IMG/VR virus record: IMGVR_UViG_3300030406_000208
Coordinates: 1 to 24,969 of that record
DNA: 24,969 nucleotides
From: a virus
Strand: one strand, 5' to 3'
Below the pieces are notes generated by a model. It had not been told where the DNA came from and made no database searches. It worked only from the letters and a program-made list of their open reading frames with translations. This document shows, in pieces, positions 4,294 to 9,261 of this stretch. A program made the translations under genes and the position numbers. Position 1 is the first letter of the stretch. The number at the start of each line of letters is the position of its first letter.

Positions 4294-5145
4294 CTATCTA
4301 GCCAAACCAATAGTGCCAAAGGTATGTGTGTTAGCCCCAGTGCCATTGTAAAAATCCATACCATGATAATTTTGCCAATAAATTGTGTCATTTGCTAAAC
4401 AAGAAAGAAGAACAGACCCACGGTTTACCCTTTGTTGCTCAAAAAAACGGGCTTGAATTGAATTTACTCCTGAACGGCCTCTCATAACATGAATTTCGTG
4501 GTTTGTATTTGCCGCTATAAGCCCACCATGAGAAACCATATAAAGGCCATCTACAGGACAAGTAAATGTATAAGCAGTTGTACTCCACAAAGATGAATCA
4601 CCGTCCCCTACAGTATTAAATGGCATAGCACCCGCAGACATAGTTTGATAGACACCAGTGGTGCCACCCAAATTAACATAGACATAAGGTCTTTGTGAAA
4701 ACGATACACGCCCACTGCTATCAATAGTCATAGCAGTATTTGAGCCGCTACCGTCCTTGATTGTCGGCACACTCAGGCTGGTCTGCACAGTCAGGTCATG
4801 CGCTAGCTTGTCAGATGTAACAGCATCATTTGCTAGCTTTGCCGTTGTCACAGACCCATCGACAGGCGTAACAGCAGAGCCTGTGTCACCCAACGCAATG
4901 ATGAAGTCTATGACATCGCCAGTGACCAGGTTCTCAGTGAACGTGATTGTTGACCCACTTATATTGAACGCATCACCAGCAGCCTGTATCACACCGTTCA
5001 CGCTGACAAGCAAAGCATTGGCAGTCGCTGGCTTGTAGGCTGTACCGTTGTAGTTCAGCGTGTAATTTGGCTGACCATTGACTACAGAGATTGCGTCTAG
5101 CTTTTTAAACTGTCCTGTCAGGGGCTGTGTTCCAATGTAAGGCAT
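4294..5145 (-). CDS. Fibre-like protein with adaptor, linker and C1q/jelly-roll-like tip
   Basis: The 283-residue product has three parts. Residues 1-95 form a beta-rich adaptor (VNGVIQAAGDAFNISGS, then TGDVIDFII). Residues about 100-146 form a linker with DGSVTTAKLANDAV and GSNTAMTIDSSGR. Residues about 150-283 form a C-terminal domain resembling the trimeric C1q/TNF-like tips of phage fibres. The adaptor and linker are paralogous to the 292-residue product encoded at 6414-7292, whereas the tips differ. ATG 5145 (MPYIGTQ) is chosen over the frame's earlier ATG at 5187 because it overlaps the 57-residue upstream gene by one base (TAATG). A role in host binding is inferred. Confidence 0.68.
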   Translation of the reverse strand: MPYIGTQPLTGQFKKLDAISVVNGQPNYTLNYNGTAYKPATANALLVSVNGVIQAAGDAFNISGSTITFTENLVTGDVIDFIIALGDTGSAVTPVDGSVTTAKLANDAVTSDKLAHDLTVQTSLSVPTIKDGSGSNTAMTIDSSGRVSFSQRPYVYVNLGGTTGVYQTMSAGAMPFNTVGDGDSSLWSTTAYTFTCPVDGLYMVSHGGLIAANTNHEIHVMRGRSGVNSIQARFFEQQRVNRGSVLLSCLANDTIYWQNYHGMDFYNGTGANTHTFGTIGLAR

Positions 5146-5318
5146 TAGTCTGCATCCTGTATTGTGTTGCCATCTTCCTTTGCCCATTCAAGAATGGCTG
5201 CATAGTCTGTATTGTCTGGGTCTAAAGGCACAAAGAGCTTTTCGCCATTGCTATTTGTAACAATAACACAAACATTGACCCCTTGATTTGCACCGTATTG
5301 GGCTGATTGAATATCCAT
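5145..5318 (-). CDS. Small conserved protein within the fibre block (57 aa)
   Basis: A 57-residue ORF fills the space between two fibre genes exactly: its ATG at 5318 directly follows the TAA of the upstream gene, and its own TAA overlaps the next ATG (TAATG). GGAG lies 6 bases before the start. The sequence contains FVPLDPDNTDYAAILEW and an acidic end. The pattern of 'xVPxDPxNTDYxxxxxW' is one I recognise from very small proteins scattered among fibre genes of marine phages. The fold is probably a short beta hairpin plus helix. The function is unknown; a fibre assembly accessory or inter-fibre linker are possibilities only. Confidence 0.68.
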   Translation of the reverse strand: MDIQSAQYGANQGVNVCVIVTNSNGEKLFVPLDPDNTDYAAILEWAKEDGNTIQDAD

Positions 5319-6413: not shown

Positions 6414-7292
6414 CTAACCTATCAACTGCCCAGAAAAATGGGCATGAACCACATCTGAATGCCATTTGTAGCTAGTATATGCGCCAACAGAGATTTGGTC
6501 ATTAACAGCTAAAGTCATAATGTGTGTAAAGCTATGTGTATACCAACCATAATCACCAGCAGTCCATGTATAATATATTGTCTCAACAGATGATGAACCT
6601 GCTGGACGATGCACAACCCATAAACTTCTACTCTCATCATTTTGGCTATAAGTACGAGAACACGATATGGTAAATTGATATATACCAGCGACTGGCGCAG
6701 TTAATCTTCCATCATTTCCATACATTCCACCTTGGTTTATGTGTGTCTGTGACCATGCTGTTACCTCTCTTAGATTTGATATTGCCCCAATATCTCCACC
6801 TGTATTAGCTGCGGTATCTGTGGTAAAAGGGCTGGAACTAGAGAAAGTTGATGCACCTCTTAAGGACATAATTGGCTTAGCTGGTTGAAAAATACGTCCA
6901 GTGCTGTCAATCGTCATGGCTGTGTTTGACCCACCACTGTCTTTAATTGTAGCAAGGTTTACTGATGAGCCAAGATTAGTTGCCGCTGCACCAGTATCTA
7001 ATTTTGCCGCAGTTACAGAACCATCAGGCGGTACAGTTGTTTGCAATGCTTTGCCCTGATAAATAACGTAGAAGTCATCAGTGCTTGCGACATTGCCTGT
7101 CATAGTCAATGCAGTGCCTGATACTGTGTAAGCAACCCCTGGCTCTTGTCTGACGTTGTTTACAAACACCTCAATTTCTTGAGCGTTGGCTACAGAATGT
7201 GTCAGTGTATAGCTTGCACCACCGTTACCAGTGATGGTCTGCTTATCCATACTGCTGTAACTGTTTGTTGTTTGATTGCCTACATAACCCAT
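6414..7292 (-). CDS. Fibre-like protein with adaptor, linker and C1q-like tip
   Basis: The 292-residue product shows the same plan as that of 4294-5145. A beta-rich adaptor occupies about residues 20-85 (VFVNNVRQEPGVAYTVSG, then DDFYVIYQG), followed by a linker with DGSVTAAKL and GSNTAMTIDSTGR (about 88-133). A C-terminal domain (about 145-292) has a C1q-like pattern including RLTAPVAGIYQFTIS and a final aromatic-rich strand. C1q-like tips are trimeric and often mediate host contact. The start ATG follows a TAG-GTG junction 7 bases after the preceding stop. It is probably an interchangeable receptor-binding protein attached to the main fibre or tail. Confidence 0.68.
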   Translation of the reverse strand: MGYVGNQTTNSYSSMDKQTITGNGGASYTLTHSVANAQEIEVFVNNVRQEPGVAYTVSGTALTMTGNVASTDDFYVIYQGKALQTTVPPDGSVTAAKLDTGAAATNLGSSVNLATIKDSGGSNTAMTIDSTGRIFQPAKPIMSLRGASTFSSSSPFTTDTAANTGGDIGAISNLREVTAWSQTHINQGGMYGNDGRLTAPVAGIYQFTISCSRTYSQNDESRSLWVVHRPAGSSSVETIYYTWTAGDYGWYTHSFTHIMTLAVNDQISVGAYTSYKWHSDVVHAHFSGQLIG

Positions 7293-7299
7293 GTGTCAC

Positions 7300-7965
7300 C
7301 TATGTGCTAATTGCATCCACAGCAGAAACCCAAACATCAAGCGAACTTGCTGTTGATGAGCGAACAAACAACCTGTCACCAGATTGCACAACAAACTTTG
7401 CACCGCCATCAAGCAACTGTAAAGCACCGCCAGCAGCAATAGGAGCATCTTTAATAAGATAGTGTGCGCTGTCGATTGTAATGTCATTGCCCATGCTATT
7501 GCCATGCGTAGTACAATAATAATACAGTGCATCTGGTGTTGTATCTGTGATAGCTATAGTTGTCTTTGCCCCAGCCTGACCTAATGTGCCTGTAGTTGTT
7601 ACACCTGTTGTATAAGCAGAGCCAGCAGCTCCCTCTTTAAAAGCAATCTGATGCCCTGAGTTTGTGCCATCAGACTGGTCAAAAGTGTATGTAAAGCCTC
7701 TATACAATGTCAGGGCTGGCTTAGTAACACCATCCAAACGGAAAGCACCACCGCTTACTGTAACGGCATAAGTGAAATAATCACCAGCACCTCTGTCGGT
7801 TGCCCCAGTTGTGATAAAAGCATCTACCGTTATTGCATTGGCATTGGTGTTTGCCATATGAATGCCAACAATAGTATCAAAACTATCAAAATCTGAACCA
7901 TCTGGAATATCTTGGGCTGTAGACCCTACCCCTGTTAGTTTGTATCTACGAAAGTTTTGTGCCAT
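7300..7965 (-). CDS. Virion beta-sandwich protein with an inserted cupredoxin-like domain
   Basis: The 221-residue product appears to be a small beta-sandwich virion protein interrupted by a second domain. Residues 1-58 and about 168-221 resemble one continuous domain (VGIHMANTNANAITVDAFI, then HYLIKDAPIAAGG and SGDRLFVRSS). Residues about 62-165 form an insert with TLYRGFTYTFDQSD, H105, and YYYCTTHGNSMG carrying C151, H154 and M158. H...C-x2-H-x3-M is the ligand set and order of type 1 copper (cupredoxin) proteins. Similar inserts occur, from memory, in structural proteins of marine phages. Copper binding is inferred. It lies between the main fibre and the fibre-like genes, with a TAGGAG-N6-ATG start. 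Confidence 0.66.
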   Translation of the reverse strand: MAQNFRRYKLTGVGSTAQDIPDGSDFDSFDTIVGIHMANTNANAITVDAFITTGATDRGAGDYFTYAVTVSGGAFRLDGVTKPALTLYRGFTYTFDQSDGTNSGHQIAFKEGAAGSAYTTGVTTTGTLGQAGAKTTIAITDTTPDALYYYCTTHGNSMGNDITIDSAHYLIKDAPIAAGGALQLLDGGAKFVVQSGDRLFVRSSTASSLDVWVSAVDAIST

Positions 7966-7974
7966 CTCAATCTC

Positions 7975-9261
7975 CTATAATGCGATAGCCATTGCGATAG
8001 CAAAGCCAGCAGTTGTTCCTGCTTCGATGGCTATCCATTGTGTGTTTCCAAGGTCATAAACCTTAAGTTTATTGCTTGATGTATCGAAATATAATGCTCC
8101 ATCTGTTAATGCCTGACTGTCATTGTCAAGAGTAGGATCAGATGATTTAGCACCAAGATATCTATCATCGAAAGTGTCAACATAAGATTCAGCTAACTCT
8201 GCATAATACCTAGCAGACTTATATGTACCATCAACAGTGTTATTTCCATCTACATAAGAAGCCCAATCTTTTGCTGAGTGTGCGCCAGATGAACCTCTAT
8301 TCATATCTCCAATGGCGTAACCCTTTGCACTAAACTCACCACTACTATCTACAGCAGTTGTAGCGTTTGGTGATGACCCACCACCTATTGCCCACTCTCT
8401 TGCAGAACCTGTTACAGATGTAACTCCTGTACCACCAACAGCCTGTGCTTTTGCAGAAAAGTCAGAGGTGCTAGGTATCGGCCCATCTACTTTTGTAGCG
8501 TAGTTCTGTGCTTTAGTTGCATTGTCAGCAGCAGCACCAATAGCTGTTATGTTGCCTGCTACTGTATTGACATTACTAATAGAACCGCCAACCAAGTTAA
8601 TATTTGTTGCAGCACTGGCAACTGTAGATAAATTATTTGTAGGGGATATCTGACCAGCAACTAAATTTATATTAGTAACAGCAGCAGCAACAGTATTTAT
8701 GTTTGCAACATTAGTAGAAACAGTGCCAACACTTGCTATACTTGGCCCGGCTTCTGGCAATCCACTTGTAGCATTAAAAGCCAAAGTAGTGCCTTTTCTT
8801 GTATCAAGGTTAGGTAAAGTTAGAGAAGCTGCTGTATCAGAATCAGCAAGCTTCATAGTACGTCCAACTTTTGTTTCAAGTTCTTGCTCAATAGCAAAAA
8901 TCTTGTCTAGCTCAGTATTTAAAGCAGATACATTAAAAGGCCCAGAAGTAGGAAAATCTGTTGTTCTTTCTACTGTAATGTCACGGAAAATAGTGAATTT
9001 AGTGCCACTACCATAAGTATCACCAAGAGTGATGTGACCACCATCGAAACCATCATCAACAGAACTTCCTGTAACCGCAAAAGTTCCTGTGCCAGTTCCT
9101 CTAGTAAGCGTAGTATCCACACCTGATGTATTGGTAACAATAACATTTATGTCATCTAAGCTAAAAAAGGGAAAGTCTATAGTAAGCTGTGTGCTATTTG
9201 CAGTAACAGCTTGCGTATATTGCTTTCTCGCATCATTATCTGCTATCGATATAGTAGCCAT
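7975..9261 (-). CDS. Tail fibre with T7 gp17-like N-terminal domain
   Basis: The 428-residue product starts with a T7 tail-fibre-type attachment domain (about residues 1-135): ARKQYTQA near the start, FPFFSLDDINV, LTRGTGTGTF, then FTIFRDITVERTTDF and LNTELDKIFAIEQELE. In T7-like phages this part docks on the tail tube. A repetitive segment follows (about 175-250) with repeated NINxVA units, then several SAKxWA/SARxYA units (about 265-355), and a C-terminal LTDGALYFDTSSNKLKVYD module. No obvious receptor-binding tip is present, so the adhesive function may be supplied by the downstream fibre-like proteins. The start is 8 bases from the preceding stop, with AGGAGA further upstream. Confidence 0.82.
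   Translation of the reverse strand: MATISIADNDARKQYTQAVTANSTQLTIDFPFFSLDDINVIVTNTSGVDTTLTRGTGTGTFAVTGSSVDDGFDGGHITLGDTYGSGTKFTIFRDITVERTTDFPTSGPFNVSALNTELDKIFAIEQELETKVGRTMKLADSDTAASLTLPNLDTRKGTTLAFNATSGLPEAGPSIASVGTVSTNVANINTVAAAVTNINLVAGQISPTNNLSTVASAATNINLVGGSISNVNTVAGNITAIGAAADNATKAQNYATKVDGPIPSTSDFSAKAQAVGGTGVTSVTGSAREWAIGGGSSPNATTAVDSSGEFSAKGYAIGDMNRGSSGAHSAKDWASYVDGNNTVDGTYKSARYYAELAESYVDTFDDRYLGAKSSDPTLDNDSQALTDGALYFDTSSNKLKVYDLGNTQWIAIEAGTTAGFAIAMAIAL

Follow-up and report, generated by a model that had tools for sequence, protein, structure and literature searches.

What is a domain resembling a copper protein doing in the middle of a small protein from the tail region of a phage, and how did it come to be there? 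The window, by which we mean the whole stretch of DNA analysed, is an ocean virus record of 24,969 bases with podovirus-type genes on its minus strand: a head-tail connector, the major capsid protein, tail proteins, a tail fibre and a block of small tail-region genes. Its large ORFs were taken as putative internal virion proteins from their order and size; the 1387-aa ORF is so called from these two properties alone, and the 1016-aa ORF had no PHROG match. Within the fibre block, two genes have C-terminal regions that match the C1q fold, at 4294-5187 (-) with an E-value of 2.6e-5 and at 6414-7292 (-) with an E-value of 6.2e-5, the latter just under the cut-off. An earlier note on this DNA had read the 221-aa product downstream of the fibre gene as a virion protein interrupted by a cupredoxin-like domain at about residues 62-165, and residues 62-165 correspond exactly to 7471-7782 (-), with H105, C151, H154 and M158 all present and C151 as the sole Cys of the protein. 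The parts of the locus are:

7975-9261, minus strand: upstream tail-fibre gene, 428 aa, assigned by a PHROG tail-fibre match
7300-7965, minus strand: 221-aa virion-type protein, a small beta-sandwich protein with an inserted predicted cupredoxin domain
7804-7965, minus strand: N-terminal half of the interrupted base domain, residues 1-54, joined without a break to the C-terminal half in homologues of 108-116 aa that lack the insert
7471-7782, minus strand: inserted predicted cupredoxin domain, residues 62-165, assigned by AlphaFold2, PDB fold matches and a profile match to PF00127 proteins
7651-7653, minus strand: H105, putative first His ligand, ahead of predicted strand 4 (186/186 full-length copies)
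7513-7515, minus strand: C151, putative thiolate ligand, at the end of predicted strand 7 (186/186)
7504-7506, minus strand: H154, putative second His ligand (186/186)
7492-7494, minus strand: M158, putative axial Met ligand (184/186)
7303-7467, minus strand: C-terminal half of the interrupted base domain, residues 167-221, assigned by homology to insert-free proteins

Predicted fold and family of the insert

Structure prediction places the insert in the cupredoxin superfamily, with a complete predicted set of type 1 copper ligands formed by H105, C151, H154 and the axial M158. AlphaFold2 modelled the full 221-aa protein at a mean pLDDT of 89, with ten-residue blocks from 71 to 160 at 91-98, and the domain alone at a pLDDT of 96.8 and a pTM of 0.89. 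The model is a Greek-key beta-sandwich of cupredoxin topology in which, according to the predicted strands and the profile alignment, the first His lies ahead of strand 4 and the Cys-His-Met group on the loop that joins the final two strands. When compared with the PDB by Foldseek, the model had three-domain nitrite reductase and rusticyanin at the top, followed by laccases and pseudoazurin, at probabilities of ~1.0 and modest E-values (best 6e-4). VIA-align superposed the domain on the N-terminal cupredoxin region of Hyphomicrobium nitrite reductase over 97 residues (Z 9.4, 2.6 A), on small laccases (Z about 8.7) and on rusticyanin (Z 8.4), and all 50 of the matches listed were copper cupredoxins. 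A predicted fold other than cupredoxin had been set beforehand as grounds for giving up the idea, and all three programs returned the cupredoxin fold.

Searches of Pfam, NCBIfam and the PDB sequences yielded no significant named match. The window protein did not match PF00127 (Copper-bind), which 6 of 22 relatives match weakly with a best E-value of 0.015, below the curated cut-off; likewise, the window domain did not match PF25489 (At5g54830-like), to which 8 of the 22 show weak similarity, again below the curated cut-off (best E 0.0016). Because the scores fall below the cut-off, we do not place the domain in PF00127, and no NCBIfam model names it, nor does any of the other family libraries searched. 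Sequence matches to nanobodies and antibodies in the PDB were rejected as apparent noise centred on a YYC motif. Profile-profile comparison by HHalign, using 80 sequences of the domain family and 18 PF00127-found sequences from SAR86 and from archaea of the domain-carrying phylum, gave a probability of 93.9 with H, C, H and M all in register, and a probability of 0.4 for a control family; the proposed correspondence to the type 1 ligands of plastocyanin-type proteins is thus borne out.

Conservation and loss of the ligand set

By itself, the H/C/H/M motif is weak evidence, and the loose pattern H-x(25-70)-C-x(2-4)-H-x(2-5)-M arose in 221 of 200,000 shuffles of the 221-aa protein and, among 1713 unrelated ORFs no shorter than 150 aa, in 37. 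It rises above chance because it is conserved across full-length relatives. Among 186 distinct full-length copies, found by a profile in which the four ligand columns were masked (two further rows were cut by contig ends) and often agreeing at only about half of their residues, 184 read HCHM, one HCHQ and one HCHK, with His, Cys and His invariant. A profile of the first half of the domain, with its His masked, found 277 copies that have the His plus a downstream C..H..M, and it also found about 50 gp7-type copies, from a cyanomyovirus clade, that are without the ligand set. The few mixed rows comprise the two variants with Gln and Lys, alignment offsets (L025 and L108), four rows of the ligand-free clade with a stray His and one unclassified copy (L429). 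Thus, as far as the alignments indicate, the ligands are retained or lost as a set, and the gp7 clade appears to have lost all of them, possibly in one event, its ~50 copies not being independent trials. Independent loss of the four residues among homologues, which would have spoken against the reading of the earlier note, was not seen; the sole ligand replaced singly is the axial Met, twice, by Gln and by Lys. Known type 1 sites vary at the axial ligand as well, Gln there being of the stellacyanin type.

Natural variants within the 221-aa type of host protein include Met to Gln (L006, 3366-3686), Met to Lys (L121, 2142-2822) and a C-x3-H form (L112, 3127-3795). In Synechococcus phage Sf-CH1b (L317, ~701-1000), a C-x2-H-x4-M copy with plastocyanin spacing lies in a very large virion structural protein. 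The gp7-type (baseplate wedge) cyanophage clade, made up of L316, L318, L320, L321, L324, L325 and most of L326-L396, has a first half that resembles the domain, a longer middle and no ligand set; from its sequences it looks like a metal-free offshoot, and could serve as a natural control.

The interrupted base domain

That the flanking halves are one interrupted domain is confirmed by homologues in which they are continuous. These insert-free proteins of 108-116 aa, with one of 125 aa, lack the middle part and are encoded by cultured phages, namely Lederberg and HTVC203P of Pelagibacter (SAR11) and HMO-2011 of SAR116, as well as by many IMG/VR contigs; the named ones, Lederberg_6, HTVC203P_gp43 and HMO-2011 phage1322_42, occupy the same gene position as the 221-aa protein, and insert-free relatives are annotated as putative structural proteins. 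With both flanks homologous and the place after the fibre gene kept, the window protein belongs with this small, 110-aa marine phage virion-type protein; gene order and insert-free homologues together also support the suggestion that the insertion was into a virion-type protein adjoining a tail-fibre gene. From homology and gene order, we infer that the 221-aa protein is probably located in the virion. When the full model was aligned over residues 1 to 221, about 100 residues paired with an endospore appendage protein (Z 8.7) and, likewise, with the Haloferax tailed virus 1 turret protein (Z 8.3). This points to a sandwich formed by the flanks themselves, although Z near 8 may reflect a common arrangement and the assignment is accordingly weaker than that of the cupredoxin.

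The insert stands in place of a short hairpin turn, between a stretch ending VDAFIT and one starting HYLIK. An insert-free relative (L059, 4992-5375) has a longer loop of 18 residues at this hairpin, which suggests that the turn tolerates insertions. In a tree built from the flanks, which offers few columns and a root that serves drawing only, one change is enough to account for the 12 distinct insert-bearing proteins (support 86/98), and a single gain of the cupredoxin insert would fit this tree. The closest relatives of the insert outside its own family are 58-62% identical and lie within longer ORFs (L015-L019). At three loci (L130, L153 and L155) the cupredoxin domain sits in the upstream fibre gene and the small protein is insert-free; in all, there are 28 insert-free loci with a copy of the domain in the vicinity, a count that is not a frequency as all of them came from a domain query; at insert-bearing loci, no second domain copy was present within the stretch of contig examined. 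Internal duplication was ruled out as a source of the insert, the base domain being unmatched by the cupredoxin profile (probability 0.4). Most of the insert-free relatives show that the base protein can do without the cupredoxin domain.

Distribution of the module

Sequence comparison indicates that the domain is an unnamed cupredoxin subfamily that would move as a cassette among tail-fibre, baseplate and small virion-type proteins of marine phages, hundreds of whose tail proteins contain the module. A tblastn search with the domain at E-values up to 1 returned 197 phage records, some of the ligand-free gp7 class included, mostly from Synechococcus and Prochlorococcus phages, with Methylophilales phage Melnitz and Pelagibacter phages among the other carriers. 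The carrier genes are labelled tail fiber, baseplate wedge, neck, structural protein or hypothetical, their PHROG matches are for the most part to tail families, and 68 predicted viral structures in BFVD matched at an E-value of 0.001 or better. Some long ORFs hold tandem copies (L056 and L052).

Cellular relatives are found in Marine Group II archaea, as predicted exported lipoproteins that carry the domain at the end and, in several cases, collagen-like stalks (L166, L168-L172, L174, L175, L180, L183, L184 and L186, one of them labelled Acidiferrobacter), and in SAR86 bacteria, as short predicted lipoproteins (L190, L192, L194 and L195), the signal and lipobox being judged by eye. L170 and L172 have a common gene neighbourhood around the archaeal lipoprotein gene, and in both L192 and L195 the domain gene is followed by a large ORF of ~970-1000 aa. 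Because such gene order is common between genomes, we read the cellular relatives as chromosomal genes; some bacterial-genome matches are in fact viral contigs, for example L182.

Possible functions of the metal site

How the site is used can be approached from what selection appears to have kept. The earlier note had allowed that the site might be a relic, its C-x2-H pair standing slightly closer to the Met than in plastocyanin; this sign loses its force, in that x2, x3 and x4 before M all occur after C-x2-H in intact relatives, along with one C-x3-H-x2-M. A relic would also be expected to drift, whereas His, Cys and His are invariant in 186/186 copies of the class that holds the window protein, with Met in 184/186, in a set gathered blind to the ligands. 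We therefore regard it as quite unlikely that the domain serves purely as a beta-sandwich spacer, with ligand residues that have ceased to bind metal, even though the gp7 clade keeps the domain after losing the whole set and so indicates that the fold can do without metal. If the metal site is what selection keeps, the handling of metal could itself be the main use, with virions holding copper, zinc or some other metal, drawn from seawater or from hosts that have lysed, as a protective scavenger, cargo or bait, and a similar idea has been put forward for iron in tail fibres (PMC11705849). Each domain has just one site, however, and nothing points to a host metal receptor, to delivery or to virion metal content, which makes this use unlikely, if somewhat less so than a mere spacer. 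We give very little credence to the remaining suggestion, that the domain is a mimic which docks on a copper or electron-transfer protein at the host surface: its carrier genes do lie in the tail region, and marine archaea and SAR86 encode cellular relatives that are predicted to be lipoproteins of the surface, but no partner has been identified, and a general tail module better fits phages of hosts as different as Synechococcus, Prochlorococcus, Methylophilales and SAR11.

On balance, we think it probable that the domain is a metal-binding cassette with a type 1 copper site of the cupredoxin kind, carried on marine phage tail proteins, loaded after release and acting as a rigid adhesion or surface knob, the support for any specific role being less than that for a copper-type metal-binding module. 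Inserted at a hairpin, the domain should project as a separate knob. The protein would be synthesised metal-free in the reducing cytoplasm of the host, where copper is not free; because it folds there, copper or another soft metal would be taken up at or after lysis. Extracellular uptake would likewise apply to the predicted lipoprotein relatives. Bound metal could then lock the ligand loop and yield a rigid, stable surface or adhesion module. Copper as the bound metal, and the manner of its loading, are what we infer for the domain. A rigid, metal-locked knob for adhesion or virion stability would be the most economical role, and is at the same time the least supported part of the proposal; we arrive at it by analogy, since the module resembles other exchangeable tail domains in its behaviour, is found in tandem copies in some long ORFs and has no recognised redox partner. 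Since no such partner was recognised near the gene, the domain probably does not serve mainly in electron transfer. That true type 1 copper centres sit on the outside of marine phage tails as a copper pool loaded from seawater or lysate, with copper status affecting stability or adsorption, is a possibility we put forward tentatively, and we would sooner expect it to fail than to hold.

Should the cassette prove to bind copper, virus particles may carry this metal, which bears on whether phage particles join the trace-metal chemistry of the ocean. Carriers include cultured phages of Synechococcus, Prochlorococcus, Methylophilales and SAR11, so that direct testing is possible in isolates. In addition, the analysis supplies an annotation for a domain that the family libraries searched leave unnamed.

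Comparison with known systems

The predicted cupredoxin domain would bring a known fold and a known site into a new context, that of phage virion-type proteins. The open-access literature, to which the search was confined, yielded no description of a cupredoxin domain in a phage virion protein, and this absence is weak evidence. With rusticyanin, the plastocyanin family (PF00127) and the N-terminal domain of Hyphomicrobium nitrite reductase, the window domain shares the predicted fold and the order and register of the ligands; it differs in scoring below every Pfam cut-off, in lying inside a virion-type protein and in the residue after the first His, which is mostly Pro in the domain family and Asn in plastocyanin and azurin. 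Its likeness to the At5g54830-like domain (PF25489), compared by sequence alone, is limited to the weak match below the cut-off. Lederberg_6, HTVC203P_gp43 and HMO-2011 phage1322_42 resemble the window protein in both flanking halves and in gene position, and differ in having no cupredoxin insert.

Phages are already known to encode a type 1 copper protein, as cyanophages carry plastocyanin (petE) genes (PMC5083919); petE, however, is a separate metabolic gene thought to be active in host electron transport during infection, whereas the copper site of the window domain is a predicted one within a virion-type protein. The metal sites that we found described in phage tails are the iron-binding HxH motifs of fibres, as in T4 gp37 and Alteromonas phage R22Y (PMC11705849). 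Those fibres and the window protein are alike in being phage tail proteins with a metal site, predicted in our case, but the former have His-only iron sites along a trimeric fibre and the latter a Cys-His-His-Met set in a predicted cupredoxin fold, so that a type 1 copper cassette would be a new metal-bearing part of the virion.
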